DNA of 64,000 nt from the NCBI GenBank assembly GCA_004376055.2, contig CP049016.1, positions 372,001 through 436,000 of the forward strand, in the 5' to 3' direction. This document shows positions 50,688 through 63,806 of this stretch, piece after piece (within the stretch, counting starts at the first letter, position 1; every line of letters starts with the position of its first letter). This DNA comes from Nitrospirales bacterium LBB_01. GTDB taxonomy: Bacteria > Nitrospirota > Thermodesulfovibrionia > Thermodesulfovibrionales > Magnetobacteriaceae. A program made the position numbers and the translations under genes. The notes under the pieces are model-generated. The model did not search any database and was not told the DNA's origin. It saw only the letters and a program-made list of their open reading frames with translations.

Positions 50688-51476
50688 ATGGTAAGAAATG
50701 CCGTGAGAATGAGCAGATTGCTTGTGTTTTTGTCGGTTTTTCTAAGTGTTGGATTAATATCTGCATGGCTGTTTGTAAATGAAGTCGGCGCTGCCGACGA
50801 ACTGGCACATGGTAAAAAGGTGTTTGAAAGCCGCTGTGTAATTTGTCACGGCGCTAAGGGAGACGGCAAAGGCTTGATGGACGTTGTGCACCGCAACGAA
50901 AAGAAGGGAATGGTTTGGTCTGTATTCCCGCGTGACTTCACATCAGGTGTGTTTAAGTTCAGAACGACTCCGACCGGTTGTCTGCCAACCGATGCAGACC
51001 TCGTCAGAGTGGTAACCGGAGGCATACCCAGAGCGTATATGCCCTCATCGGTCGATTTGTCCAAAGAGGATGTGAAGGCAGTTACAGGGTACATAAAGAC
51101 GTTTTCCAAGCGATGGACAGATGAAAAGGCCTGCAGCGCTATCCCCATAAAGAAGCCTTCTTTTGTAGGCTCACCTGATTCAGTAGCAAAGGGTGAAAAA
51201 ATATGGGAAAATATGAAGTGCTGGGAATGCCACGGTAAAGAAGGCAAAGGAGACGGCACTAAGGCCGATAGCTTAAAGGACGACTGGGGTGACAAGGTTA
51301 TTCCCTTTGACTTTACATCGGGTGCAACTAAGATGGGCTTTGCTCCTGAGAATGTTTACACCGCCTACACCACAGGACTGGACGGCACAGGTATGCCTTC
51401 TTATGCAGATTCTTTAAAAGAAGAGGATAGATGGCATCTGGTTTCTTATACATTAAAACTAATGGGAAGGCTTTAG
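50688..51476 (+). CDS. Diheme c-type cytochrome
   Basis: 262 residues with an N-terminal signal/anchor (about 10-33) and two CxxCH haem sites, CVICHGAKGDGKG (about 50) and CWECHGKEGKGDG (about 178). Distal Met ligands are likely in the PRAYMPSS and GTGMPSYA regions. It is a periplasmic or membrane-anchored electron carrier placed directly before nosZ (21 bases), so the likely donor of electrons to N2O reductase. GGGAGGG precedes the ATG. Confidence 0.9.
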   Translation: MVRNAVRMSRLLVFLSVFLSVGLISAWLFVNEVGAADELAHGKKVFESRCVICHGAKGDGKGLMDVVHRNEKKGMVWSVFPRDFTSGVFKFRTTPTGCLPTDADLVRVVTGGIPRAYMPSSVDLSKEDVKAVTGYIKTFSKRWTDEKACSAIPIKKPSFVGSPDSVAKGEKIWENMKCWECHGKEGKGDGTKADSLKDDWGDKVIPFDFTSGATKMGFAPENVYTAYTTGLDGTGMPSYADSLKEEDRWHLVSYTLKLMGRL

Positions 51477-51497
51477 CAGATAAGAGGAGGTAGAGAT

Positions 51498-53354
51498 ATG
51501 TCTTTTGATAGAAGAAGCTTTCTTAAGTATTTGGGAGTGGCAGGCGCAAGTGTTGGCGCAGGGATTGTTGCTCTTGAAAACGTAACGAAAGATGGAATAA
51601 AAAATACATTGTTGGGCACTAGCGAGGCTCAGGCTGACACTAAAGGCAGCGTTGGTACTCAAAACTATGATGTAAAACCCGGTGAGCTGGATTCATACTA
51701 TGGTTTCTGGAGCGGCGGTCATTCCGGTGAGGTTAGAATCCTCGGGGTGCCCTCTATGAGAGAGCTTAAGAGAATCCCCGTGTTTAATATGGACGTCGGC
51801 TCAGGTTATGGCGTAACCAACGAAAGTAAGGCGCTCCTTAAGGGGCGTTTCTGCGGTGACACTCACCACGTTCACGGCTCCTACAAAGACGGTATCTATG
51901 ATGCGAAGTACCTCTTTGTAAATGACAAACTCAACAACCGTGTAGCTCGTATCAGGATGGACTACATGGAGGTTGATAAGATTGTTGACGTCCCCAACAT
52001 TCAGGGAATGCACGGGCTGTTCACACAAAGATTTCCAAAGACCGATTGGGTAGTGTGTAACGGCGAGTTTCAGGTGCCGGTACCCAATAGCTCTGCTACT
52101 TCTACCGATGCTCCCAGCAAGTACTATGGTATTCACTCCATAATAGACGCCGAGAAGATGGAGGTCGTGTGTCAGATTATGATGGACGAGAACATGGATT
52201 TAGCTGCCACCGATTACGGCGGAAAGTATTCTATGACCACATCATATAACACTGAAAAAGGCGTTACGGTTTCCGAGATGCTCGCTAACGACAATGATGC
52301 AATGTTGGTGTTCAACTGGGAAAGAATTCGTAAAGCGCTGAGTGCCAACAATTACAAGATGATTAACGGAGTGAAGGTAATTGACGGCAGAGAGGGCAAG
52401 TCTGACATAGTGCTGCGTATTCCGATTCCAAAAAACCCGCACGGCATAAACGTTACCCCTGACGGCAAGTATGCAATATGTTCAGGTAAAGTGGCGCCGA
52501 TATGCTCGGTTGTTGAAATTGCTAAGTTGGATGAGGCGTTTAGCGGCAAAATCAAACCCAAAGACTGTATAGTTGCTCAGCCTTATATTGGTCTTGGGCC
52601 GCTTCACACAACGTATGACGGCAGAGGAAACGCCTACACGTCAGTGTTTATTGACAGCACCAATGTTAAGTGGAACATCCAGAAGGCTATTGATGCCGAA
52701 AAATTGGGCGCTGAAGAGAAAAAGAAAAACGCTCACATTATTGACGTTTTAGATATTCACTATCAGGTCGGACACATAATGGCCTCAATGGCTGAGACGA
52801 AAGAGGCCGATGGCAAATGGCTCATCTCTTTGAACAAATTTTCAAAAGACAGGTTCCTTAACGTGGGCCCAGCTAAAAACGAGTGCGAACAGCTCATTGA
52901 TATATCCGGCGAGAAGTTGAAACTTGTTCACGACTCAGCCATATACATTGAGCCGCATGACTGTATAATTGTAAGAAGAGACATCGTTGAAAAGGTCGTA
53001 AAAGACAGATACAACATGTTTGAGCATCCGCTTGCCGTAACAAAGAGCGGTGTGGAAAGAAAAGGAAACAAGGTTACTGTAAAACTTACAGCAAACGCCC
53101 CTGTGTTTGGCCTTCAAGAGGTTAAACTCAAAAAAGGTGATGACGTCACAGTTATTGTTACAAACAATGACGAGATTTCAGACCTGGGACACGGATTTGC
53201 GCTCTCCAATTACAACATCAATTTTGTTGTCTCCCCGTTTCAAACTAAGTCGGTAACGTTTAAAGCTGACAAACCGGGAGTTCATTGGGCATATTGCACC
53301 AATTTCTGCCATGCCCTCCACCTGGAAATGAGAATGAGGTTTATAATAACCTAA
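51498..53354 (+). CDS. nosZ: Nitrous-oxide reductase
   Basis: 618 residues. The N-terminus MSFDRRSFLKYLGVAG is a twin-arginine export signal. A seven-bladed propeller carries the CuZ histidines (THHVHGSY, NPHGINVTPDG, GPLHTTYDG, DIHYQVGH, IEPHDC). The cupredoxin domain ends with the CuA motif CTNFCHALHLEM (Cys 600, Cys 604, His 608, Met 611). All copper ligands I can place are intact. It reduces N2O to N2 in the periplasm. The neighbouring split nosR, nosD, nosF and nosY genes mature and drive it. GAGGAGGT precedes the ATG. Confidence 0.97.
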   Translation: MSFDRRSFLKYLGVAGASVGAGIVALENVTKDGIKNTLLGTSEAQADTKGSVGTQNYDVKPGELDSYYGFWSGGHSGEVRILGVPSMRELKRIPVFNMDVGSGYGVTNESKALLKGRFCGDTHHVHGSYKDGIYDAKYLFVNDKLNNRVARIRMDYMEVDKIVDVPNIQGMHGLFTQRFPKTDWVVCNGEFQVPVPNSSATSTDAPSKYYGIHSIIDAEKMEVVCQIMMDENMDLAATDYGGKYSMTTSYNTEKGVTVSEMLANDNDAMLVFNWERIRKALSANNYKMINGVKVIDGREGKSDIVLRIPIPKNPHGINVTPDGKYAICSGKVAPICSVVEIAKLDEAFSGKIKPKDCIVAQPYIGLGPLHTTYDGRGNAYTSVFIDSTNVKWNIQKAIDAEKLGAEEKKKNAHIIDVLDIHYQVGHIMASMAETKEADGKWLISLNKFSKDRFLNVGPAKNECEQLIDISGEKLKLVHDSAIYIEPHDCIIVRRDIVEKVVKDRYNMFEHPLAVTKSGVERKGNKVTVKLTANAPVFGLQEVKLKKGDDVTVIVTNNDEISDLGHGFALSNYNINFVVSPFQTKSVTFKADKPGVHWAYCTNFCHALHLEMRMRFIIT

Positions 53355-53377
53355 GCGTATAAAATCTACAGAGAAAT

Positions 53378-53410
53378 CTCGGGCGGCACACTCTTAGTGC
53401 CGCCTGAGAC
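53378..53410 (+). terminator. Hairpin between nosZ and the FMN-binding nosR part
   Basis: TCTCGGGCGGCAC (53378-53390) pairs with GTGCCGCCTGAGA (53398-53410), 13 pairs with one G-U, loop ACTCTTA. No T tract follows, so it is more likely a processing or attenuation structure giving nosZ higher mRNA than the downstream genes. Confidence 0.55.
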
Positions 53411-53439
53411 CCATCTTTATAACAAAAAGGGGTTTAACA

Positions 53440-54519
53440 GTGAAATTCAGAATAGTTATCAAAACGGTTGTATTGGCAGTGCTTTTTGCGTGTTCTATGG
53501 CGTATGCCGGAAATTGGTCGTATTTTGAGCATAGATATGAGTACAAGCCTGAGGACGTATTGAAGGCAGATAAGTTTGTACAAAAAGAGCATTATCTTGA
53601 AGGATTTATGGGCGGTAAACTTGTTGGTTATGTGATTAACTCAAAGGATTTCAGTTTAAATCATGTCGGGTATTCCGGTAAACACATTGAGACTTTGATA
53701 GGAATGGACACGGCAGGTAATTTGACTGGAGTCAAGGTGCTTTTTCACTCTGAGCCAATAGTGCTGATAGGGTTAAAAGAGGATAATTTTAAGGATTTTA
53801 TTACAAAGTACGTTGGTAAGAATGTAGTAAAAGGCGTATCGCTTGGTAACGATATAAAAATGGATGCTCTTACGGGGGCTACTGTTACCGCAGTAGTGGA
53901 AAATGCCATAATTTTGGAATCGGCAAAGAAGGTTGCTGTGGCAGCCGGCTTGATTAAATATAGCGAGAAAAAGGGTAAGAGACTCAGCAAGAAATTTGAA
54001 GCATTAGGATTTAGCGAGCTGGTAGCCTCAGGGGGAGTTAAGAACCTTGTCATAAACCCTAAAGACCTTGGAATTGAGGGTAAAGAAGCATTTTTGGATT
54101 TGTATGTTGGAGTAGTGTCTTCTCCCACAATCGGCAAAAACATTTTGGGTGAGCGTGCCTTCAATGAGCTAATGTCAACGTTAAAAGATGATGAGCACGC
54201 CATATTCATAGCAGCCCGCGGGAAGGGTTCGTTTAAAGGCTCCGGGTTTGCTCGCGGCGGTGTGTTTGAAAGATTCAGCCTTGAGCAGGAAAACAGAAGC
54301 TATGTGTTTACCGACAAGGACTATAAAATCCTGACTGAACTATCGGCTAAAGGCGCACCTGAAATTCATGAGGGCGGAGTGTTTATCATAAGAGGTAAGG
54401 ATTTTGATCCAGCATTACCCTTTAAATTAAAACTCATGTTAACGTTTAGAGAAGGAGTGACAAAGAAGTTTTATTCAACCACGGTTGACTATGAGCTTTC
54501 AGAAAGGTTTATGGAGTAA
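53440..54519 (+). CDS. NosR-like N-terminal half: periplasmic FMN-binding protein
   Basis: 359 residues with a signal peptide (about 1-24). An FMN-binding domain (about 55-170) carries the covalent-flavin motif LTGATVTAVV (about 144-153), where Thr is flavinylated. The rest (LTELSAKGAPEIHEGGVF, DPALPFKLKLMLTF) matches the NosR periplasmic region, which ends in a YELSERF-like segment just as this frame ends. NosR is normally a single protein of about 700 residues. Here the membrane part is in the next gene, overlapping by 29-35 bases in another frame. This may be a real split or a single-base frameshift. Confidence 0.85.
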   Translation: MKFRIVIKTVVLAVLFACSMAYAGNWSYFEHRYEYKPEDVLKADKFVQKEHYLEGFMGGKLVGYVINSKDFSLNHVGYSGKHIETLIGMDTAGNLTGVKVLFHSEPIVLIGLKEDNFKDFITKYVGKNVVKGVSLGNDIKMDALTGATVTAVVENAIILESAKKVAVAAGLIKYSEKKGKRLSKKFEALGFSELVASGGVKNLVINPKDLGIEGKEAFLDLYVGVVSSPTIGKNILGERAFNELMSTLKDDEHAIFIAARGKGSFKGSGFARGGVFERFSLEQENRSYVFTDKDYKILTELSAKGAPEIHEGGVFIIRGKDFDPALPFKLKLMLTFREGVTKKFYSTTVDYELSERFME

Positions 54520-55402
54520 TCCTGTGGATACCGCTCTTTGGAAAATCATCTGGGCACAGAAGACTGTACATATTTCGCTTTTTGCTGCCTTGATTGCTGC
54601 GGTCGTAGTTGTGTTTCTTTTGAAAAACCGACTGTCAAAGAAACCGGCGGTTTTTAATATAATCCGATACGGCATTTTGACAGCTTCGTTTTTCTATGTC
54701 GGACTGTATTTAAAAGCACAGCCAACCACAACAAATATCGGTATAGCGATAAGCTCTGCCAAAGATGGCAATTTTCCTCTTGAGTTGTTTCTTATGGAGC
54801 CGTTTATTTTTCTGTCTTTTGCGTTTATTATTGTGAGCTCCATAATATGGGGGCGCGGCGCCTACTGCGGGTGGCTCTGTCCTTATGGGGCTATGCTTGA
54901 GTTATTAAACGCAGTTATCGGTAAAAGGGTTAACCTTAAAGTGCCTCAAGGCGTGCACAAAGTGTTGCTAAAGTTAAAATACGCAGCGCTTGCTGCAATT
55001 GTTGGTGTTGCATGGTATAACTTCATGCTCTCTGAGTATCTGACAGAAGTGGAGCCTTTTAAAACCTTTGTGCTGAAACTAAACAGGCAATGGTATTTTG
55101 TGGCGTACTTTTTTGTGCTAACAATTCTTTCATTAATTGTATATCGGGCATTTTGCCGATACCTGTGTCCATTGGGAGCGGCAATATCAGTTCCGGCAGT
55201 TTTGAAAAAAATCCTTCCGATAAGCAGACTTAAACGAAGGGCGCTCTGCGTCAGTTGTAAAGTGTGTGCCAAATCCTGCGCCAGTGCGGCAATCAGCAGC
55301 ACTGGCGTCATCAACTATGCCGAGTGTATGCACTGCTTTGACTGCCAGATGATTTACCATGATACACACAGATGTACCGAGCTTATTGGTAAAAAAAGGT
55401 GA
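54491..55402 (+). CDS. NosR-like C-terminal half: polyferredoxin membrane protein
   Basis: About 303 residues. Five or six TM segments, conserved RGAYCGWLCPYGAM and FCRYLCPLGAA cysteine loops, and two ferredoxin-type Cys clusters at the end (LCVSCKVCAKSC; ECMHCFDCQMIYHDTHRC). This is the membrane half of NosR/NapH-like proteins that passes electrons from quinol to the periplasmic flavin. The start is the ATG at 54491 within the last codons of the FMN-binding gene, though a TTG six bases earlier is open. nosD begins four bases inside its end. Confidence 0.88.
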   Translation: MSFQKGLWSNPVDTALWKIIWAQKTVHISLFAALIAAVVVVFLLKNRLSKKPAVFNIIRYGILTASFFYVGLYLKAQPTTTNIGIAISSAKDGNFPLELFLMEPFIFLSFAFIIVSSIIWGRGAYCGWLCPYGAMLELLNAVIGKRVNLKVPQGVHKVLLKLKYAALAAIVGVAWYNFMLSEYLTEVEPFKTFVLKLNRQWYFVAYFFVLTILSLIVYRAFCRYLCPLGAAISVPAVLKKILPISRLKRRALCVSCKVCAKSCASAAISSTGVINYAECMHCFDCQMIYHDTHRCTELIGKKR

Positions 55403-56715
55403 ACATTATCCGGTTGATTTTCGTATCTATTGCTGTTTTTTTAGTTTCTACTGCAAGCGCAGAGTCCGCCGTATTAAAAGTCGGCAACGGCGGTTTTAAG
55501 ACAATTAATGCGGCTCTCGGTAAGGCAAAACCTGGGGATACGGTAGAGGTCAATGGCGGCACATACGCTGAGATACTTAAATTGGATAAGAAAATACATA
55601 TAAAAGGCGTCAATAATCCCGTTATAGTTTCCAAAGGCGGTAATATTGTTGACATACTCAGTTCAGATGTAACCTTTGAGGGCTTTACGCTTAAATATGA
55701 AGGAAAGCACGTTACAGAGGATGTGGCAGTAGCGATACACGGTGGAACTATGGGAGTACGAATACAAAACAATATTTTTAAAAACGTTATGTTCGGGGTG
55801 AAGGTTTTAGAGAGTTTTGATACTGCAATTACAGATAACGTAATAGAGGGTGTTGACGACAAAGACGAATCAAACCGCGGCACATGTATAACAGCAGTGG
55901 GTACATTAAACCTTGAGGTGAGCGGCAATAAGGTCACAAGCTGCCGCGATGGCATTTACATGGAGGTTTCACACTATTCAACGGTAACCGGTAATGAGGT
56001 GACAAAATCTCGTTACGCCATTCATACAATGTGGGTTGACTCCGGTAATTTCAGTGACAACACCGTCATTGACAATCTTGTCGGTATGGCCATCATGTAC
56101 ACCAAGCACACAGTTATAAACAGAAACGTTGCAGTTGGAAACAAGACTCACGGATTATTAATAAACCAGACGATAAGAAGCGAAATAAATGAAAACATAT
56201 CTATAGGTAACTCAAAGGGAATATTCCTGTACAATTCAATAGAAGATGAGGTAAAATCTAATCTCATAATGAATAACAACATTGGAATTCACAGTTGGGG
56301 AGGCTCAGAGGAAAATAAAGTAACAGGCAATTCTCTAATTGACAATGAAGTGCAGGTAAAGTATGTGGCAGCTAAAGACCAGGAGTGGAGCGGCAACTAT
56401 TGGAGCGACTATCTGGGCTGGGATATGACAGGCAAGGGCACAGGGGATATGCCCTATGAGTCAAACACAGTGGTTGACCATATTTTTTGGCGTTATCCTT
56501 TAGCTAAACTTCTCTACAGCAGCCCTGCTATGCATGTTTTAAAAATAATAGAAAAACAGTTCCCAATATTGAAAGTTCCAAAGGTGACAGACAAAGCTCC
56601 CTCGATGGTTCCTTTTCATAAGGATTGGAAAGCGTTGAAGGCAAAATACGAAAAATATCAACCCGCCAATTATCATATAGATTCAGTGAAACTCTCTAAC
56701 ACCGGAGGCATGTAG
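55399..56715 (+). CDS. nosD: NosD copper-maturation protein
   Basis: 438 residues from GTG. A signal peptide (about 1-21) and a right-handed parallel beta-helix of short repeats (FKTINAALGKAKPGDTVEV, NGGTYAEIL, many xNNIxxN units) typical of NosD/pectate-lyase-fold proteins. NosD is periplasmic and delivers copper, with the NosFY ABC complex, to the CuZ site of NosZ. It overlaps the upstream gene by four bases and the nosF GTG by one, so the genes are translationally coupled. Confidence 0.93.
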   Translation: MNIIRLIFVSIAVFLVSTASAESAVLKVGNGGFKTINAALGKAKPGDTVEVNGGTYAEILKLDKKIHIKGVNNPVIVSKGGNIVDILSSDVTFEGFTLKYEGKHVTEDVAVAIHGGTMGVRIQNNIFKNVMFGVKVLESFDTAITDNVIEGVDDKDESNRGTCITAVGTLNLEVSGNKVTSCRDGIYMEVSHYSTVTGNEVTKSRYAIHTMWVDSGNFSDNTVIDNLVGMAIMYTKHTVINRNVAVGNKTHGLLINQTIRSEINENISIGNSKGIFLYNSIEDEVKSNLIMNNNIGIHSWGGSEENKVTGNSLIDNEVQVKYVAAKDQEWSGNYWSDYLGWDMTGKGTGDMPYESNTVVDHIFWRYPLAKLLYSSPAMHVLKIIEKQFPILKVPKVTDKAPSMVPFHKDWKALKAKYEKYQPANYHIDSVKLSNTGGM

Positions 56716-57617
56716 TGAAAATTAGCTTCAAAGAGGTGACAAAACGTTACGGGGATTTTGTTGCGCTGGAAAAAATTAATCTTGAGATAGTGCAGGGCGA
56801 GACGTTTGGTCTTGTGGGGCCAAATGGCTCAGGAAAGTCAACCCTGATGAGGCTTCTGCTTGGCATAATAAAACCCACCGAGGGCACTGTGCTCTTTGAC
56901 GGAGTATCGCTTAGCGAAAAGGGCTGGATAGAGATAAGAAAACAGATTGGATATATGCCAGAACGGGTGTCCTTTTATGACAACCTTACGGGGCTTGAGA
57001 CACTGGAACACTTTGCCAGAATTAAGGGCGGCAGTGTTAGTAACATCAAAGGCGTGCTCGGAAAGATTCTTTCAGATGAGGCGCTAAATAGAAGAGTAGG
57101 GGGGTATTCTAAGGGTATGCGTCAGCGGATTAATCTGGCTCAGGCGCTTCTTAATAATCCCGCTCTTTTGGTGTTGGATGAGCCAACGTCAGGGCTTGAT
57201 CCGGTTGGAGTGCGAGAGCTATACGGAATCCTTGATGAGTTAAAAAGCGTAAGGAATATGACCATAGTGCTGTCCTCTCACATACTTGCTGAGATAGAGG
57301 AAAAAGTACAGCGAGTCGGGATTATGAAAGAGGGAAATATAAAGGCCACAGGCTCGCTTGAGGAGCTTTACCGTGGGTTTAATCTCCCGCTTAGACTGGT
57401 TATAATGCTCAAAGAAGACGGCGACAAGAGGATTGTTGAGCTGTTAAAGGCAGAGGGCATGGACAGTATGGTTATCAGAGACGGCACTCTTACAACTGAC
57501 CTGCCAAGAGATAAAAAAATGAGTGTGCTTAGCTGCATATTAGAACATAAGGATTCGTTTTCAGATTTCACAGTGCGGGAGCCAAGTCTTGAGGAGGTGT
57601 TTTTTGGTATTCACTGA
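56715..57617 (+). CDS. nosF: NosF ABC transporter ATPase
   Basis: 300 residues. Walker A GPNGSGKST (about 36-44), Q-loop, signature GYSKGMRQR and Walker B LLVLDEPTSGLDP followed by the switch His in LSSHIL. With NosY and NosD it forms the NosDFY complex that loads copper into NosZ. The GTG start shares its first base with the last of the nosD stop. Ordinary and intact. Confidence 0.93.
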   Translation: MKISFKEVTKRYGDFVALEKINLEIVQGETFGLVGPNGSGKSTLMRLLLGIIKPTEGTVLFDGVSLSEKGWIEIRKQIGYMPERVSFYDNLTGLETLEHFARIKGGSVSNIKGVLGKILSDEALNRRVGGYSKGMRQRINLAQALLNNPALLVLDEPTSGLDPVGVRELYGILDELKSVRNMTIVLSSHILAEIEEKVQRVGIMKEGNIKATGSLEELYRGFNLPLRLVIMLKEDGDKRIVELLKAEGMDSMVIRDGTLTTDLPRDKKMSVLSCILEHKDSFSDFTVREPSLEEVFFGIH

Positions 57618-58434
57618 TGCGCTAAGAGCGATGGCTGTCAAGGAGTTATCGGATAAATTAAAAAGCAAATGGGTCATTGTAATAACGCTTGTGTTTGCTT
57701 TTTTTACTTTGATAATTGCCTATTTTGGTTCGGTATCCTCTGGGGTTGTATCATTTACAAACATGAGCGCAACTATTGCAAGTCTTACAAGTCTTGCGGT
57801 TTATTTTATTCCCATTCTTTCCTTAACTCTTGGCGGCGGAATCATTGCTGATGAGAGAGACAGGCACACGCTTGATTTATACATGGCGTCGCCAATTTCA
57901 GTGTTTGAGTTTTTGGCGGGAAAATTCATTGGGCTTGCTGCCTCACTGACTATTCCAATTATTGTCGGGTTTTGTCTTCCAGGATTTATACTTGTCATTA
58001 AGGCAGGACCAGGGTCGTTTGCCAGTTTTTTGATGTTTGTCGTTAATTCTATCTTTCTTGGAATCATGTTTTTAAGCCTGTCGTTTCTTGTATCGGTTCT
58101 AATAGTGGAAAGAAGCAAATCCATTGCGTTTACGGTGTTTTTGTGGCTTTTGTTTACAATCCTATATGATTTAGCTTTGGTAGGGATGCTTATTGTCACA
58201 AAGGGAGTTCTTAGCCCAAACGTATTTTCCATCCTTCTGATGCTTAACCCTGTGGACGTCTATAGAATCCTTAATTTTATCACAATAGGGCAGTTCTCGG
58301 TAATTCTTGGACTTGCCTCAGTTGAGCTCCCCAGCTTTATGAGCAGGTATGTCTTGTGGGCTGTCAATCTGTTTTGGATTGTTACGCCGCTTTTGATTAG
58401 CTATTTTGTGTTCAAGAGAAAATACTTAAAATAA
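57604..58434 (+). CDS. nosY: NosY ABC transporter permease
   Basis: About 277 residues with six TM segments (ABC-2 type). Starts possible: TTG 57589, TTG 57604 or ATG 57631. The TTG at 57604 is favoured because GGAGG lies six bases upstream; the ATG would give a conserved N-terminus MAVKELSDKLKSKW. It is the membrane part of NosDFY. It overlaps nosF by about 14 bases. Confidence 0.9.
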   Translation: MVFTDALRAMAVKELSDKLKSKWVIVITLVFAFFTLIIAYFGSVSSGVVSFTNMSATIASLTSLAVYFIPILSLTLGGGIIADERDRHTLDLYMASPISVFEFLAGKFIGLAASLTIPIIVGFCLPGFILVIKAGPGSFASFLMFVVNSIFLGIMFLSLSFLVSVLIVERSKSIAFTVFLWLLFTILYDLALVGMLIVTKGVLSPNVFSILLMLNPVDVYRILNFITIGQFSVILGLASVELPSFMSRYVLWAVNLFWIVTPLLISYFVFKRKYLK

Positions 58435-58442
58435 AATGTATA

Positions 58443-59393
58443 GTGAAGGAGGATTTCCAAATGCGTTTAAAGACATGGAGTTTTTTAGCGGCGCTTACGT
58501 TAATGGCGCTAAGCTTGAGTGCATACGGTTACGACACGGTTGACGTTAAAAACGGAGCAACCATAAAAGGGGTTATACGCGGCGCCTCCCCTGCCGATGA
58601 GGTCATCAATGTAACCGAGGATGAGGCGGTCTGCGGAAAAACAATCACATCAGATAAGTATGCAATTTCCGACTCAAAGGTAAAAAACGTTGTTGTGTTT
58701 GTCACAGATGTTAAAAAAGGGATGGCAGTGCCTAAGAAAAATGTTGAGCTTACGATGGATAAATGCAAGGTGACGCCGCATGTTTCAATCGGTTTTTTAG
58801 GCGGCGAATATGTCATTAAAAATAACGATCCGATTTTACACACCGTTCAGCTAAAACTTGGGCTTGCCTACCAAAAAGAGGCTTCAACGCGCCCGCTTGT
58901 GGATGGTTCCACTATTTTAAATCTTGCCTTTCCCACACAAGGGATGGAACTAAAAAAACCGATACTGGATTTTCATAAGTTTACAAAAGAAACTGGCTAC
59001 ATTCGTGTTAAGTCAAACTCGCATCCATGGATGAGGGGCATAGTGTTTGTGTTTGATCACCCGTACGCTTCAGTTTCTAACGACAAAGGAGAGTATGAGA
59101 TAACAGGTCTTATGCCCGGTAAATATACGCTTAAGTTTTGGCATGAGGGACTTGGAGAGGTGGAAAAAACCGTGGTGGTATCAGAGGGGGAAACGAAAAC
59201 TCTTGATGTTGACTTAAGCGATAAATCTAAGACACAGGTTGACACTAACACACATGCGGGCCCTAAAATTCAATTTAAAGATAGTGTTTATAACTTCGGT
59301 ACAATCAAACAAGGCAAGAGTGTGAAACATACCTTTAAGTTTGAAAATACGGGAACAGATGTTCTTGTTATCAAAGACGTAGTACCGGCATGA
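58443..59393 (+). CDS. Carboxypeptidase-regulatory-like / DUF1573 protein, ending at an in-frame TGA
   Basis: 316 residues to the TGA. Signal peptide (about 1-22), a region shared with the 61222 gene (VDVKNGATIKGVIRG, CGKTI, HPWMRG, MPGKYTLKFWHEGLGEVEK) that contains a cupredoxin- or carboxypeptidase-regulatory-like beta fold, and then the first half of a DUF1573 domain (YNFGTIKQGKSVKHTFKF). DUF1573 normally goes on after about this point. Here the codon at the conserved Cys position is TGA, and the frame goes on without a stop to 59576. The protein is exported. Its role in N2O respiration is unknown; its position within the nos operon suggests copper or electron handling. Confidence 0.8.
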   Translation: MKEDFQMRLKTWSFLAALTLMALSLSAYGYDTVDVKNGATIKGVIRGASPADEVINVTEDEAVCGKTITSDKYAISDSKVKNVVVFVTDVKKGMAVPKKNVELTMDKCKVTPHVSIGFLGGEYVIKNNDPILHTVQLKLGLAYQKEASTRPLVDGSTILNLAFPTQGMELKKPILDFHKFTKETGYIRVKSNSHPWMRGIVFVFDHPYASVSNDKGEYEITGLMPGKYTLKFWHEGLGEVEKTVVVSEGETKTLDVDLSDKSKTQVDTNTHAGPKIQFKDSVYNFGTIKQGKSVKHTFKFENTGTDVLVIKDVVPA

Positions 59394-59576
59394 AGGCGGT
59401 GCACAAAGGCGTCTGCCAGTTCGGTGGAAATAAAACCCAGGGGGAAGTCTGATATAAAGGTTACTATCTTATTTGACGGCGCTCCCGGGCCTGCTAAAAA
59501 GACAGTAGAGGTGTGGAGTAATGATTCCAACACAGGAATGGTTACTTTAGTTACTGAAGGAACAGTCACAGATTAA
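59391..59576 (+). other. In-frame TGA and the C-terminal half of the DUF1573 domain
   Basis: After the TGA (59391-59393) the same frame gives RRCTKASASSVEIKPRG, then KSDIKVTILFDGA, WSNDSNTGMVTLVTEGTV and a TAA at 59574-59576. This matches the second half of DUF1573 (PG-K-I-V, ND, G-V). Where the family has a CGCT cysteine motif, the sequence reads TGA-Arg-Arg-Cys-Thr. So either the TGA is read as selenocysteine (U-x-x-C), or it is a nonsense mutation. A hairpin GGCGG/CTGCC can form at 59395-59419 right after TGA. Confidence 0.6.
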
Positions 59577-59625
59577 GGTATAATCTGGTGGTGTGCAATC
59601 TTAGAGTGATGATTTCCGGGTGGTG

Positions 59626-60630
59626 ATGAATAGGAGAGAGTTTGTAAAGGGAGCAGTCGGTGCCGTGGGGGCAGTGTTATTAAGCAAGGTACCGGTGTTT
59701 GGTAAAGCCGTAGAGGATGCCGCTGTAAAGAGTGTCTCCTTGAAGCTGACCTATAGGACTGAGTTTTTAAAACCAATTAAGAAGGAAAAAGTCTGCTTAT
59801 GGGTTCCCATACCGCAGAATGATTCATGGCAGCGCATTACAGATTTTGAAGTCAGCTCGCCTTTGAAATATAAGCCTTATGGTGATGATGCCGGGGCTTT
59901 TAAACTCCTCTATCTGGAATCAAAGGGCATTAAGGCCGGCGTTCCAGTTACCTTAAAATACAACATGAAAAGACTAACCGAGTCAGCGGCTCTGGATAAC
60001 AGTAAAAACCCGAAAGACTTCCTAAAACTTTCGGAGTGGGAAAAAATCAATGACAAAGTTGCCGCCTTTGCCGATAACCTTGCAGGAAACGAAAAGGACC
60101 CGGTAAAGATAGCCCGCAAGTTCTATGACGCCGTAATTGACAGGATTGAATATGTCCATGAGGCTTGCACACGCGGCGTCAGTGTGATGGCTTTTGAAGA
60201 GAAAGCCGGCCGCTCCGACGACTATAATGCTCTCTTTAGAACCATGATGATTCACAAGGGGATTCCTACAGTTTGGGAACAGGGAATTGCGCTTCCGTAT
60301 GTGTCTGAAATGAAAAAAACCGGACGGCTTGAGGCTGATTGTATAAACAGTTACAGTTGGGTTCGTTTTCTTACCGCTGACAACAAATGGTTTCCGGTTG
60401 ATTTGACTTATGGTAAAAGAAGACCAGATATTAGGGATTACTGTTTTGGACACGTTCCCCCAAACAGAATAAGAATGTCTATTGGGCGCGAGATTACCCT
60501 TACCCCGCCTCAAAAAGAGATTTTAAACACCTTTAGCAACACACATGTAGAGTCAAACGGCATTCCCCTTATATATGGACACCACTACAAGAATATGATA
60601 GACTATGAGCTGGTTGCAGTGGAGACATGA
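59626..60630 (+). CDS. Transglutaminase-fold protein without catalytic residues, Tat-exported
   Basis: About 334 residues; the ATG at 59626 begins MNRREFVKG, a twin-arginine signal (GTGs six and three bases upstream are also in frame). A transglutaminase-like domain covers about 150-270: the family's catalytic-Cys stretch reads KAGRSDDYNALFRTMM, with Ser where Cys is expected, and the His stretch reads SYSWVRFL, without His; the Asp in FPVDLTYG is kept. Catalysis is therefore unlikely; a binding or scaffold role in the periplasm is more likely. It lies between two nos-operon genes of unknown function. Confidence 0.8.
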   Translation: MNRREFVKGAVGAVGAVLLSKVPVFGKAVEDAAVKSVSLKLTYRTEFLKPIKKEKVCLWVPIPQNDSWQRITDFEVSSPLKYKPYGDDAGAFKLLYLESKGIKAGVPVTLKYNMKRLTESAALDNSKNPKDFLKLSEWEKINDKVAAFADNLAGNEKDPVKIARKFYDAVIDRIEYVHEACTRGVSVMAFEEKAGRSDDYNALFRTMMIHKGIPTVWEQGIALPYVSEMKKTGRLEADCINSYSWVRFLTADNKWFPVDLTYGKRRPDIRDYCFGHVPPNRIRMSIGREITLTPPQKEILNTFSNTHVESNGIPLIYGHHYKNMIDYELVAVET

Positions 60631-60633
60631 TTT

Positions 60634-61146
60634 ATGATAGGAAAAAATAAAATTAAAGCGCTTTACGTGATGCTTGTTTTTATGCTATCATTAACGGCTG
60701 TTGCGTATTCATCTGAGGGGGTGAGAGAGGGTGAGCCTCCGCCTACTTTTAAGATGATTGATGAAAACGGTAAGGAGTTTGATATAAAGAAACTTATGGA
60801 CAGACCAGCGATTATGTACTTTACTCACAACAGCTGTCATTATTGCACGCAGGTAGTAGCATTTTTAAAGCGGGCACAGAGTAAGTACGGTAAGGATAAG
60901 ATTAGCATTATGGGTATAAATATAATGGCGCGGGATGCAGCTTTGGTAAAAGCCTATAAGCGGGATTTGGGATTTACATTTCCCATGTTTGCCGGTAACA
61001 GACCTGATGTGCTTACGGCATACAGGATAAACTATGTGCCGGTGATTGTTTTCATAGATTCAAAGGGCTTGGTTTACAAAGTGGTTGGGCATTATATACA
61101 TGAGAAGGTGCTTGACCAGTATATAGAGGATATAATGAAGAAGTAG
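60634..61146 (+). CDS. TlpA/thioredoxin-like periplasmic protein
   Basis: 170 residues with a signal peptide (about 1-25). AhpC/TSA-type thioredoxin fold: PPPTFKMIDENGKEFDI, redox pair THNSCHYCTQ (CHYC, about 68-71) and VPVIVFIDSKG with the cis-Pro. Such proteins reduce cysteines of c-type cytochrome or copper-centre apoproteins. In a nos operon the CuA cysteines of NosZ are the likely client; this is inference. It begins three bases after the preceding gene. Confidence 0.88.
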   Translation: MIGKNKIKALYVMLVFMLSLTAVAYSSEGVREGEPPPTFKMIDENGKEFDIKKLMDRPAIMYFTHNSCHYCTQVVAFLKRAQSKYGKDKISIMGINIMARDAALVKAYKRDLGFTFPMFAGNRPDVLTAYRINYVPVIVFIDSKGLVYKVVGHYIHEKVLDQYIEDIMKK

Positions 61147-61221
61147 GGTAATTTGTATTGGCAAAATCTTGATTTTCAAGATGATTGAAAACATTAAAAG
61201 GTTTAAGCGGAGGTAAAGTAG

Positions 61222-61953
61222 ATGAAGAAGTTAGTGGCTCTAATGTGTGTAATGGTGTTTCTTTGTGTGAGTGCTGCGGCGATAGCAGCTGATAAGTATG
61301 AGGTCGTGGATGTAAAAGACGGCGGCAGCATTAAGGGAACAGTGAAGACCTCAGGTGCGCCTGCTGATCCAGTTCTTAACATCAATAAAGACACCGAGTT
61401 CTGCGGCAAGTCCCACCCTGCTGGAATGTATATAGTAGGAGCCGGCGGTGGAGTTCAAAATGTTATCGTAGCAGTAGAGGGTGTAACCAAGGGTAAAGCA
61501 GTACCTACAACTGAAACTGTTGTAGATAACCTCAAATGTGCTTTTCATCCGTTGGTAAGCATTGCTTATGTTGGTCAGAAGTATGTACTGAAAAACAGTG
61601 ACTCGATATTTCACAACACATCGCTTGGTTTAATACTGGGCGAGGGCAAAAAAAGAACAGTGTATAACTTAGCTCTTCCTAACAAAGACCAAAAAATAGA
61701 GAAACCTGTAAAAGTAGCCGGCCTCCAGAGTGTCTCCTGTGATGCACACGCATGGATGCGCGCATATGTTTATGCAACTCCGAACCCTTACGCAGCAGTC
61801 ACAGACGCCAACGGCGCATATGAGATAAAGGATCTCCCAGCCGGCAAGTACAAAGTTAAATTCTGGCATGAGGGCTTTGGCGAGGCGGTAGTTGATGTAG
61901 ATGTAAAGGCAGGAGCAGCTGCTACTCTTGACCACTCATTTGCAAAGAAATAA
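61222..61953 (+). CDS. Carboxypeptidase-regulatory-like protein, paralogue of the 58443 gene
   Basis: 243 residues with signal peptide (about 1-22). It shares layout and motifs with the first 240 residues of the 58443 gene: VVDVKDGGSIKGTVK, NKDTEFCGKSH, ITVTP-like spacing, CDAHAWMRAYVY and LPAGKYKVKFWHEGFGEA. Conserved Cys and His in both (CGK; DAHAWM/SHPWM) may bind a metal. The pair probably resulted from a duplication within the operon, one keeping a DUF1573 tail. A strong terminator follows 21 bases after the stop. Confidence 0.82.
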   Translation: MKKLVALMCVMVFLCVSAAAIAADKYEVVDVKDGGSIKGTVKTSGAPADPVLNINKDTEFCGKSHPAGMYIVGAGGGVQNVIVAVEGVTKGKAVPTTETVVDNLKCAFHPLVSIAYVGQKYVLKNSDSIFHNTSLGLILGEGKKRTVYNLALPNKDQKIEKPVKVAGLQSVSCDAHAWMRAYVYATPNPYAAVTDANGAYEIKDLPAGKYKVKFWHEGFGEAVVDVDVKAGAAATLDHSFAKK

Positions 61954-61973
61954 ATTATCCTTAATATGAAGCG

Positions 61974-62012
61974 GGTTCACCACGGAAATGTGGTGAACCT
62001 TGTTTCTTTTTG
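61974..62012 (+). terminator. Rho-independent terminator of the nos operon
   Basis: GGTTCACCAC (61974-61983) pairs perfectly with GTGGTGAACC (61990-61999) around GGAAAT, followed by TTGTTTCTTTTT. Confidence 0.9.
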
Positions 62013-62054
62013 ACATAGTGATGGTAAGACCAACTAAACGTATAGGAGATGAAT

Positions 62055-63806
62055 ATGGCAGACGTTAGCCCATCTAAAAGCCTGATAAAAGGGGTTATAA
62101 AGTTAACCTTGTTTTTGGGCATAGGTTTTGCTGTACTTTTTATCTTAAACAAAGTTCTTGCAGCACCCACGGAGGACGGTTACAGGTTTTTCCCTGTGAT
62201 TGGAAGCCGTGTGTGGGTGTGGGTAATAGCGCAGCTTCACCTTAATTTTGCTGCCTTTGTTTTGGGTGTTCCGATTTTTGCCGTTTCGATGGAGTTTATA
62301 GGCTGGAGGCGTAATGATGAGAGGCTGGATAGAATCGCTTACGATTTTACGAAGCTCTTTACACTTGCCTACACGCTTACGGCTGCTGTCGGTACGATAC
62401 TGTTGATAAGTTTACCCGTGCTGTATCCAAAGTTTATAGATCATTTGATGAAAATCCTTGGGCCTACGTGGTGGGTCTATGTGGTAGTGATGTATGTTGA
62501 AACGCTTGTCTGCTACTACTACTTCTACTCATGGAAGCAGATGAAAGGTAATAAAAAGGGAAAGCATGTAGCCCTTGGCGGCCTTCTGAATATCATGGGC
62601 ATGACCATGCTTCTAATTACCAGCGCATGGGTTGGGTATATGACAACGCCGGGCGGGGTTAGCGACACCGGCGAGCTTATAAACCGCTGGCACGCCATTA
62701 AGACCTACATGTGGATACCTCTTTCACTTCACAGACTTGTCGCAAATGTTGTGTTTGGCGCAGGTATTGCTGCAGCTTATGCAGCTTACAGATTTATAAC
62801 CGCTGAAAACGATGAGCAACGCGCCTATTACGACTGGATGGGTTATACATCGGCGATGATTTCTATCGGATTTTCACTGATTTTGCCCGGAGTTGGCTAC
62901 ATGTTGGGTGTTGAAATCTACACGTTTAACGAACAGATGGGAATTCAGCTTATGGGCGGATTTTTTGCGTGGCTGTGGGTTATGCAGGCAATTCTAATAG
63001 GTGCTATTCTTATGTTTGTTAACTACTACCTTTGGATTTCCCTGAATAAGATGCCAGGGGGCGAAAGGTATTTCAAATACGTAAAATTCCTGTTTATTGT
63101 AAACCTGCTGTCATATGCAGTGTGGCTTACGCCTCATAGCATAGCGCTTAGTCTTGAAGAGGCAAGACGCATGGGAGCATATCACCCGGTGCTCGGTAGT
63201 CTTGGTGTTATGGCCTCTAAAAACACGGCCGTTGTTGTGTCCTATATGGCCACGTTTTTAAGTTTTACCATCTTTAAAATAAGCAACAAAGAGCCTGTGG
63301 TCAGTTGGGCTAAGCTCGGGCATGCCATTAGAGCTTTCGTGATAGTAGGGTCAACCGTTGCTGCTATTGCCATAGGTATTTACAGTTATATGGTAACATC
63401 CGCGGTGAGAGTGAAGATTCTGTCGCCAATCCAGTTTGGGATATTTTTCCTCTCTATAATAATTCTCTTTGTGCTTGACTCTATGATGTATAAAGGAGCA
63501 AAGATTATTGGAGAGCCAAAGTGGGGCAAAATGCCGGAGCGGTCGCAGTATGCACTAATAGGAATTACTGTGACATTTACGTGGCTTATGGCAATGATGG
63601 GATACATGAGAAGCGGAGGCAGACAGTTTTGGCATGTGTATGGAATCATGAAAGACACAAGTCCGGATGCCTATTTACCAACGCATGGTTATGCTGCAGT
63701 TGTTTCCTCCATTGTCACAGTGATATTTTTTGCCCTGATAGGACTTCTGTTTTGGAGCATTATGAAACTTGAAAAAGCGTCAGAGAAGGGGGGGGCTAAA
63801 ACATGA
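62055..63806 (+). CDS. Cytochrome bd-like oxidase subunit I (Nitrospira type)
   Basis: About 583 residues with about 14 TM segments. Conserved histidines in IAQLHLNFAAFVLG (about 55) and RWHAIKTYMWIPLSLHR (about 210-226) fit haem-binding positions of CydA-like proteins; WGWNxxQ-type motifs of CydA are replaced. This group, known from nitrite oxidisers and other Nitrospirota, is called bd-like; its activity (O2 or NO reduction) is not settled. The ATG at 62055 is preferred: TAGGAG lies six bases before it, whereas the ATG at 62049 touches the ribosome site. The next gene overlaps by four bases. Confidence 0.8.
   Translation: MADVSPSKSLIKGVIKLTLFLGIGFAVLFILNKVLAAPTEDGYRFFPVIGSRVWVWVIAQLHLNFAAFVLGVPIFAVSMEFIGWRRNDERLDRIAYDFTKLFTLAYTLTAAVGTILLISLPVLYPKFIDHLMKILGPTWWVYVVVMYVETLVCYYYFYSWKQMKGNKKGKHVALGGLLNIMGMTMLLITSAWVGYMTTPGGVSDTGELINRWHAIKTYMWIPLSLHRLVANVVFGAGIAAAYAAYRFITAENDEQRAYYDWMGYTSAMISIGFSLILPGVGYMLGVEIYTFNEQMGIQLMGGFFAWLWVMQAILIGAILMFVNYYLWISLNKMPGGERYFKYVKFLFIVNLLSYAVWLTPHSIALSLEEARRMGAYHPVLGSLGVMASKNTAVVVSYMATFLSFTIFKISNKEPVVSWAKLGHAIRAFVIVGSTVAAIAIGIYSYMVTSAVRVKILSPIQFGIFFLSIIILFVLDSMMYKGAKIIGEPKWGKMPERSQYALIGITVTFTWLMAMMGYMRSGGRQFWHVYGIMKDTSPDAYLPTHGYAAVVSSIVTVIFFALIGLLFWSIMKLEKASEKGGAKT

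Follow-up and report, generated by a model that had tools for sequence, protein, structure and literature searches.

A predicted selenoprotein encoded beside nosZ in Nitrospirota and its possible link to the Cu_A site of nitrous oxide reductase

Background

The described clade I nos cluster, nosRZDFYL, has a relative with additions in the DNA considered here, a stretch of 64,000 nucleotides (nt) from Nitrospirales bacterium LBB_01. The whole of this stretch, C1:372001-436000 of the single-contig, 3.27 Mb genome G000, is called the window. All six functions and a NosZ of the Tat (twin-arginine translocation) type are shared with the described cluster, but nosR is split in two, and nosL is set apart by a block of a cydA-like gene and cytochrome genes. 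The window also adds four proteins: a selenocysteine (Sec) protein, a transglutaminase-like protein, a TlpA-type thioredoxin and a cupredoxin. The first, termed CRL1-U, and the last, CRL2, are both carboxypeptidase-regulatory-like (CRL) proteins, and CRL1-U is the main subject.

Loading of the Cu_A site of NosZ, which is bridged by two Cys, is less clear than that of Cu_Z, with which NosL is mainly linked (PMC6530538). Paracoccus nosL mutants are short of Cu_Z and keep Cu_A if copper is sufficient; both are lost if copper is limiting (PMC6530538). How, then, are the Cu_A cysteines prepared? A model exists for another Cu_A enzyme. TlpA of Bradyrhizobium reduces ScoI and the cytochrome oxidase Cu_A subunit CoxB before metallation (PMC6696091). 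That system shares with the nos loci described below a TlpA-type thioredoxin beside Sco and a Cu_A enzyme; it differs in that NosZ is the proposed client here, a Sec domain is added and the window locus has no Sco. Bacillus azotoformans has nos clusters with SenC/SCO1, which has been read as a Cu_A insertion factor (PMC3475470). A Sco next to nos is thus a shared trait, but no Sec domain is described there.

Selenoproteins of the DUF1573/OS_HP2 type (PF07610, NF041425) are known already. They belong to the same domain family as CRL1-U and carry Sec at the corresponding loop. In reviews their motif is UGC or UxC (PMC9312934, PMC13188914, PMC2398784), whereas the form at nos loci has U-x-x-C, a cupredoxin-type protein or Sco as its fusion partner and up to two Sec, and lies in a nos operon. 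A literature search, which left most subscription papers outside its coverage, found no report linking a selenoprotein or selenocysteine to nosZ, nitrous oxide reductase or SCO1, and no mention of the U-x-x-C form of DUF1573 or of its fusion to a Sco or cupredoxin-type protein.

The selenocysteine codon of CRL1

By standard rules the open reading frame (ORF) of CRL1 ends at the TGA at 59391-59393, in the middle of a DUF1573 domain, where 39 of 98 model positions are matched at 36.9 bits. Past the TGA the frame reads PA*RRCTKASASSVEIKPRGKSDIKVTILFDG... and runs to a TAA stop at 59574-59576. With read-through, the match to PF07610 covers 97 of 98 positions at 71.1 bits (cut-off 26.1). A preceding sequence-only reading of this DNA had given the protein a DUF1573 tail; the domain stands, but not the end at 59393 that was assigned to it. 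The full product consists of a cupredoxin-like domain without the Cys ligand, a CarboxypepD_reg domain and a DUF1573 domain with U-x-x-C.

The TGA is invariant over 19 domains from 15 Nitrospirota genomes of several families. It stands at the identical codon in 12 homologues fused to CRL1 (G000, G001, G004, G010, G011, G013, G016, G035, G045, G361, G383, G403) and in three fused to Sco (G044, G076, G316). The motif of the Sec domains at nos loci is U-[RK]-x-C; no Cys version was seen at these loci in a search that was not exhaustive. Four of the 15 proteins (L081, L082, L083, L085) have a tandem second Sec domain with UK[RK]A in the same ORF, and each is predicted from its sequence to hold two Sec.

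Is the domain beyond the TGA translated? In ten genome pairs the ratio of non-synonymous to synonymous differences (pN/pS) is 0.18-0.47 over the 60-70 codons after the TGA and 0.23-0.49 over the 45 codons before it. Selection is as purifying after the TGA as before it, and the domain is therefore taken to be translated. The DUF1573 tail was also considered as a frameshift or a pseudogene, but this was ruled out by the conservation of the TGA in homologues and by the purifying selection. Nor has the genetic code changed, since TGA doubles as an ordinary stop in the same genomes, e.g. 3' of the Sec domain in G004 and G011.

A hairpin resembling a selenocysteine insertion sequence (SECIS) follows the codon. 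The ungapped alignment of the 19 Sec-TGA sites (alignment A1) has as its consensus a seven-pair stem about 20 nt past the TGA with a five-base loop (AGUUC, GGUUC or GGUCC), the G being invariant. Stem cells are paired in 95.5% of cases and in 35-47% when the partner strand is slid; there are two-sided changes at three stem pairs, and the covariation score was matched by none of 500 shuffles. A hairpin with the same AGUUC loop is found in stand-alone DUF1573 proteins of the same order, which have a TGA at the corresponding place. The machinery for Sec is also present. The window genome encodes tRNA-SeC with anticodon tca and SelB (351 bits, cut-off 242), and SelB is above the cut-off in 26 of 27 genomes, G010 having a partial match only. 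Taken together, the comparisons make it almost certain that selenocysteine is inserted at the TGA at 59391-59393. Wherever gene calling treats UGA as a stop, CRL1-U will probably be annotated wrongly, as a truncated protein; the sequence-only reading is a case of this.

The best match of the CRL1-U Sec domain in the curated library is the OS_HP2 (seleno)protein family NF041425, at 56.6 bits and under the cut-off of 100; a related stand-alone DUF1573 protein scores 72.9 bits, also under it. In the predicted structure of CRL1 the U-x-x-C sits after strand 302-309 and before strand 315-319, and in a fold comparison the DUF1573 part resembles Ig domains of the HYDIN, PapD-like and VesB types. As a separate observation, four stand-alone DUF1573 proteins of the same order (L041, L042, L043, L045) have an in-frame TGA (S-U-G-C-T) and, towards the C-terminus, two CxxCH heme motifs. 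Each is, from its sequence, a possible selenoprotein-diheme cytochrome c.

Association of the accessory genes with clade I nosZ

The conservation of the module was surveyed in 396 genomes, the search being confined to Nitrospirota. A nosZ match was found in 25; two of these are distant (38-39% identity) and were set aside, leaving 23 of the clade I type. The transglutaminase-like gene (E<1e-50) is present in 20 genomes, every copy at a clade I nos locus. All 20 are among the 23 with clade I nosZ and none among the other 373, for which the hypergeometric probability, a figure that ignores kinship, is 8e-31. A tblastn search of plasmids with the transglutaminase-like protein gave no match. TlpA is adjacent to or near the transglutaminase-like gene in all 20 genomes, and a Sco gene and/or the Sec domain is in the same run in all 20. 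The accessory set spans eight Nitrospirota families with conserved gene order. Sec coding, the fusions and the linkage to clade I nosZ are thus evident in the sequences of the sampled genomes.

The transglutaminase-like gene is missing from three of the 23 genomes. The nos locus of G007 runs off its contig, and no copy was found elsewhere in that genome. G002 and G003 keep nosZ, and aligned to G000 they have two gaps: one has removed most of the Sec domain, leaving 44 nt around its 3' end, and the other the transglutaminase-like gene and TlpA.

Sco is in the same gene run in ten related nos loci, but not in the window locus; the Sco-family genes of the window genome lie elsewhere. Among the ten, Sco lies between CRL1 and the transglutaminase-like gene in G237, G252, G389, G104, G113 and G122 and past the latter in G035; G044, G076 and G316 have it as a fusion with the Sec domain. 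The sequence-only reading had proposed a periplasmic accessory module tied to nos and copper. Its conservation at clade I loci is upheld, and Sco, as a separate or fused partner at many of them, lends support to the proposed tie to copper or Cu_A.

What kind of proteins accompany the Sec domain? CRL2 has a plastocyanin-like domain. H131, C173, H176 and M179, invariant in 18 relatives, are predicted to be all four type-1 copper ligands. In the structure model (mean pLDDT 89.4), residues 96-187 align with plastocyanin 1bxu (Z 11.7, root-mean-square deviation 1.8, 83 aligned), and Foldseek gives a match to amicyanin (E 5e-6). The fold and the His-Cys-His-Met ligand order of plastocyanin and amicyanin are shared, but CRL2 is extended by an N-terminal region and a CarboxypepD_reg sandwich. 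CRL1 is built alike (alignment A2), but Ser replaces the Cys ligand and the Met is variable. Sequence searches of the PDB with the CRL profiles gave short partial matches only. The TlpA-like protein scores 60.6 bits against the ResA model, under its cut-off of 170, and its CxxC is retained in relatives. The transglutaminase-like protein had been described as lacking the catalytic Cys and His. This is correct for the window protein, in which those two residues of the Cys-His-Asp triad are replaced, but not for most of 21 aligned relatives, which retain them.

NosZ type and NosL

The cluster had earlier been taken for clade II. NosZ of the window, however, scores 814.5 bits with TIGR04244, the model for the Tat type, and 475 bits with TIGR04246, the model for the Sec (general secretory) type; the cut-off is 625 in both cases, so that only the first is passed. 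It also matches solved NosZ structures over almost its entire length. Tat-type NosZ of Nitrospirota forms a sub-clade inside clade I (PMC11033732). By these sequence criteria, which include the presence of NosR, the window nos cluster is clade I and not clade II.

NosL, thought to be absent, is encoded at C1:438691-439077, 2.6 kb beyond the window end (PF05573, 153 bits, cut-off 24), downstream of the terminator, the cydA-like gene and three cytochrome c genes. Among the 23 clade I nosZ genomes, NosL is above the cut-off in 20, and in relatives it often comes straight after CRL2; the only three in which none was found genome-wide belong to family f26 (G104, G113, G122). ApbE, of the NosX family, is encoded elsewhere in the window genome. 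The clade I nos loci of the f26 genomes (L088-L090) have Sco, the transglutaminase-like gene and TlpA.

Possible functions and alternatives

In the proposed scheme the Sec domain and TlpA would act as a selenol/thiol relay, by which the two Cys of the NosZ Cu_A site, and also those of Sco or another copper carrier, stay reduced. The reduced thiols would make Cu_A loading or repair possible, and NosL would serve Cu_Z. CRL2 may be a blue copper protein that brings copper or electrons to NosZ, and the transglutaminase-like protein, presumably inactive in the window genome, may serve as a scaffold or binding partner. Three facts lead to the inference that the Sec domain and TlpA act on the thiols of Cu_A and of its carrier: TlpA reduces ScoI and CoxB, nosL mutants with sufficient copper retain Cu_A, and two Cys bridge Cu_A. 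The Cu_A link is supported by the fusion of the Sec domain to Sco in three genomes and by the presence of Sco in the same run elsewhere. The client, the redox partner and any copper transfer are likewise inferred.

Several points weigh against this scheme. Copper alone can reconstitute Cu_A, and NosL may supply Cu_A at low copper (PMC6530538). Sco occurs without a Sec domain at six nos loci. The set is dispensable in some relatives, since G002 and G003 keep nosZ after losing the Sec domain, the transglutaminase-like gene and TlpA. As regards Sec insertion, the SECIS stem of the window itself includes two G-U pairs, and a fold of lower energy exists; being weak alone, the stem leaves the SECIS case to rest on the alignment. 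With these points counted, a Cu_A role of the Sec domain/TlpA module is put forward tentatively, at slightly less than even probability, and the whole explanation (a periplasmic selenoprotein of the nos operon, a Cu_A thiol relay and the partner roles) is regarded as evenly balanced between right and wrong.

Could the module instead deliver electrons? CRL2, the cytochromes c and the cydA-like block would then feed NosZ, with the selenoprotein, real in this case too, and TlpA serving the cysteines of cytochromes or cupredoxins. CRL2 does agree with plastocyanin in fold and ligands, NosZ is known to take electrons from cupredoxins and cytochromes c (PMC6530538), and the module has a diheme cytochrome c and the cydA-like block as neighbours. 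But the Sec domain is fused in three genomes to Sco, a copper-chaperone family, and several loci without the cydA-like block still have the Sec domain, TlpA and the transglutaminase-like gene, so that electron delivery is considered unlikely. A real selenoprotein might also act in general periplasmic thiol or peroxide repair, shielding nos proteins from oxidation or nitric oxide with no part in metal loading. The U-x-x-C and CxxC motifs would suit such a role, as would the DUF1573 selenoproteins found away from nos and the loss of the set from G002 and G003. In the sampled genomes, however, the transglutaminase-like gene is confined to clade I nos loci; this and, again, the fusion to Sco speak against a repair role, which is judged improbable.

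Two further explanations fare far worse. If the TGA were an ordinary stop, as standard gene calling has it, CRL1 would be truncated and the remaining DUF1573 a decaying remnant, for which the loss of the domain from G002 and G003 might be cited. A TGA held at the same codon in 15 genomes of several families with an intact frame, the purifying selection, the hairpin and the presence of Sec machinery make this scarcely credible. The sequence-only reading had the four accessory proteins replace NosL and NosX, and the f26 genomes, with the transglutaminase-like gene, TlpA and Sco and no NosL found, have what such a replacement would predict. But NosL lies downstream in the window genome itself and is present in most clade I nosZ genomes, contrary to the absence expected from nos loci of the phylum, and ApbE is present; nosX is reported to be dispensable for copper-centre assembly (PMC7660919). 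Replacement is accordingly very improbable. The other expectation of that reading, the same gene set beside nosZ in related genomes, was borne out at Nitrospirota clade I nos loci.

To return to the thiol relay, the conserved set that accompanies clade I nosZ in the phylum supplies candidates for Cu_A loading: TlpA, a cupredoxin and the Sec domain, which in some genomes is joined to Sco. Because the Sec protein belongs to a conserved copper- and thiol-handling set beside nosZ, the data suggest that selenium helps build or maintain a NosZ copper site. A stronger statement would be that nitrous oxide (N2O) reduction is selenium-dependent in many Nitrospirota, the Sec-DUF1573 domain on a Sco or cupredoxin-type protein, recharged by TlpA, being a dedicated factor of Cu_A maturation or repair. 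This is a bolder claim, and doubt about it outweighs belief. If true, it would link the supply of selenium to the consumption of a greenhouse gas.

Gene order and neighbouring genes

The features are collected in Table 1. Every ORF of the sequence-only reading was found again at the coordinates given there. The families that the sequence-only reading had assigned to the ORFs of this run (cytochrome c, NosZ, split NosR, NosD, NosF, NosY, two CarboxypepD_reg proteins, Transglut_core and TlpA) were recovered, as were the tight spacing, -35 to +95 nt between genes, and the terminator-like hairpin after the last gene. T-tailed hairpins at the matching position are also present in three genomes of the same genus, G001, G002 and G003. 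An Rfam scan of the window gave no match.

Table 1. Features of the nos run and adjoining DNA; positions are those of the window
Position	Strand	Feature	Basis or remark
50688..51476	+	Exported diheme cytochrome c with two domains; opens the run	Pfam Cytochrome_CBB3/Cytochrom_C, two stretches; upstream of nosZ in relatives too
51498..53354	+	nosZ, nitrous oxide reductase, Tat type (clade I)	TIGR04244
53440..54519	+	nosR N-terminal half (flavin mononucleotide-binding)	PF04205; NosR model positions 46-373
54485..55402	+	nosR C-terminal half (membrane, Fe-S)	PF12801; NosR model positions 386-679
55399..56715	+	nosD	PF05048, 132 bits
56715..57617	+	nosF, ATP-binding cassette (ABC) transporter ATPase	PF00005
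57589..58434	+	nosY, ABC-2 membrane protein	PF12679
58461..59576	+	CRL1-U, predicted exported selenoprotein, 371 residues	Read-through frame; fused homologues; alignment A2; model and fold matches
59391..59393	+	TGA, predicted selenocysteine codon in the motif U-R-R-C-T	Same codon throughout the 19 domains (15 genomes)
59412..59428	+	SECIS-like hairpin, 6-7 pairs, loop AGUUC	Covariation over 19 sites
59620..60630	+	Tat-signal transglutaminase-like protein, catalytic Cys and His lost	PF01841
60634..61146	+	TlpA/ResA-like thioredoxin, CHYC	PF00578 (AhpC/TSA)
61222..61953	+	CRL2, plastocyanin-like cupredoxin with CarboxypepD_reg domain	Ligand residues, fold match
61973..62000	+	Terminator-like hairpin with T-rich tail	12 pairs; 3' of the last gene, CRL2
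62049..63806	+	cydA-like gene, opening a block of cydA-like gene, three cytochrome c genes and nosL that runs past the window end	PF01654; order kept in several relatives

The cydA-like gene and the three cytochrome c genes (62049 to C1:438599) lie between the module and nosL in many relatives, and one of the three cytochromes has an ethylbenzene-dehydrogenase-type heme domain. The block may represent a quinol dehydrogenase that feeds NosZ. At several nos loci a second, divergent NosL-family gene follows the first (L079, L083, L085; matches in G361, G389, G403). The window genome has a third NosL-type domain at C1:3138276-3138599 (L003), within an open frame of 483 residues; several relatives are alike, and the domain is probably part of a larger fused protein.

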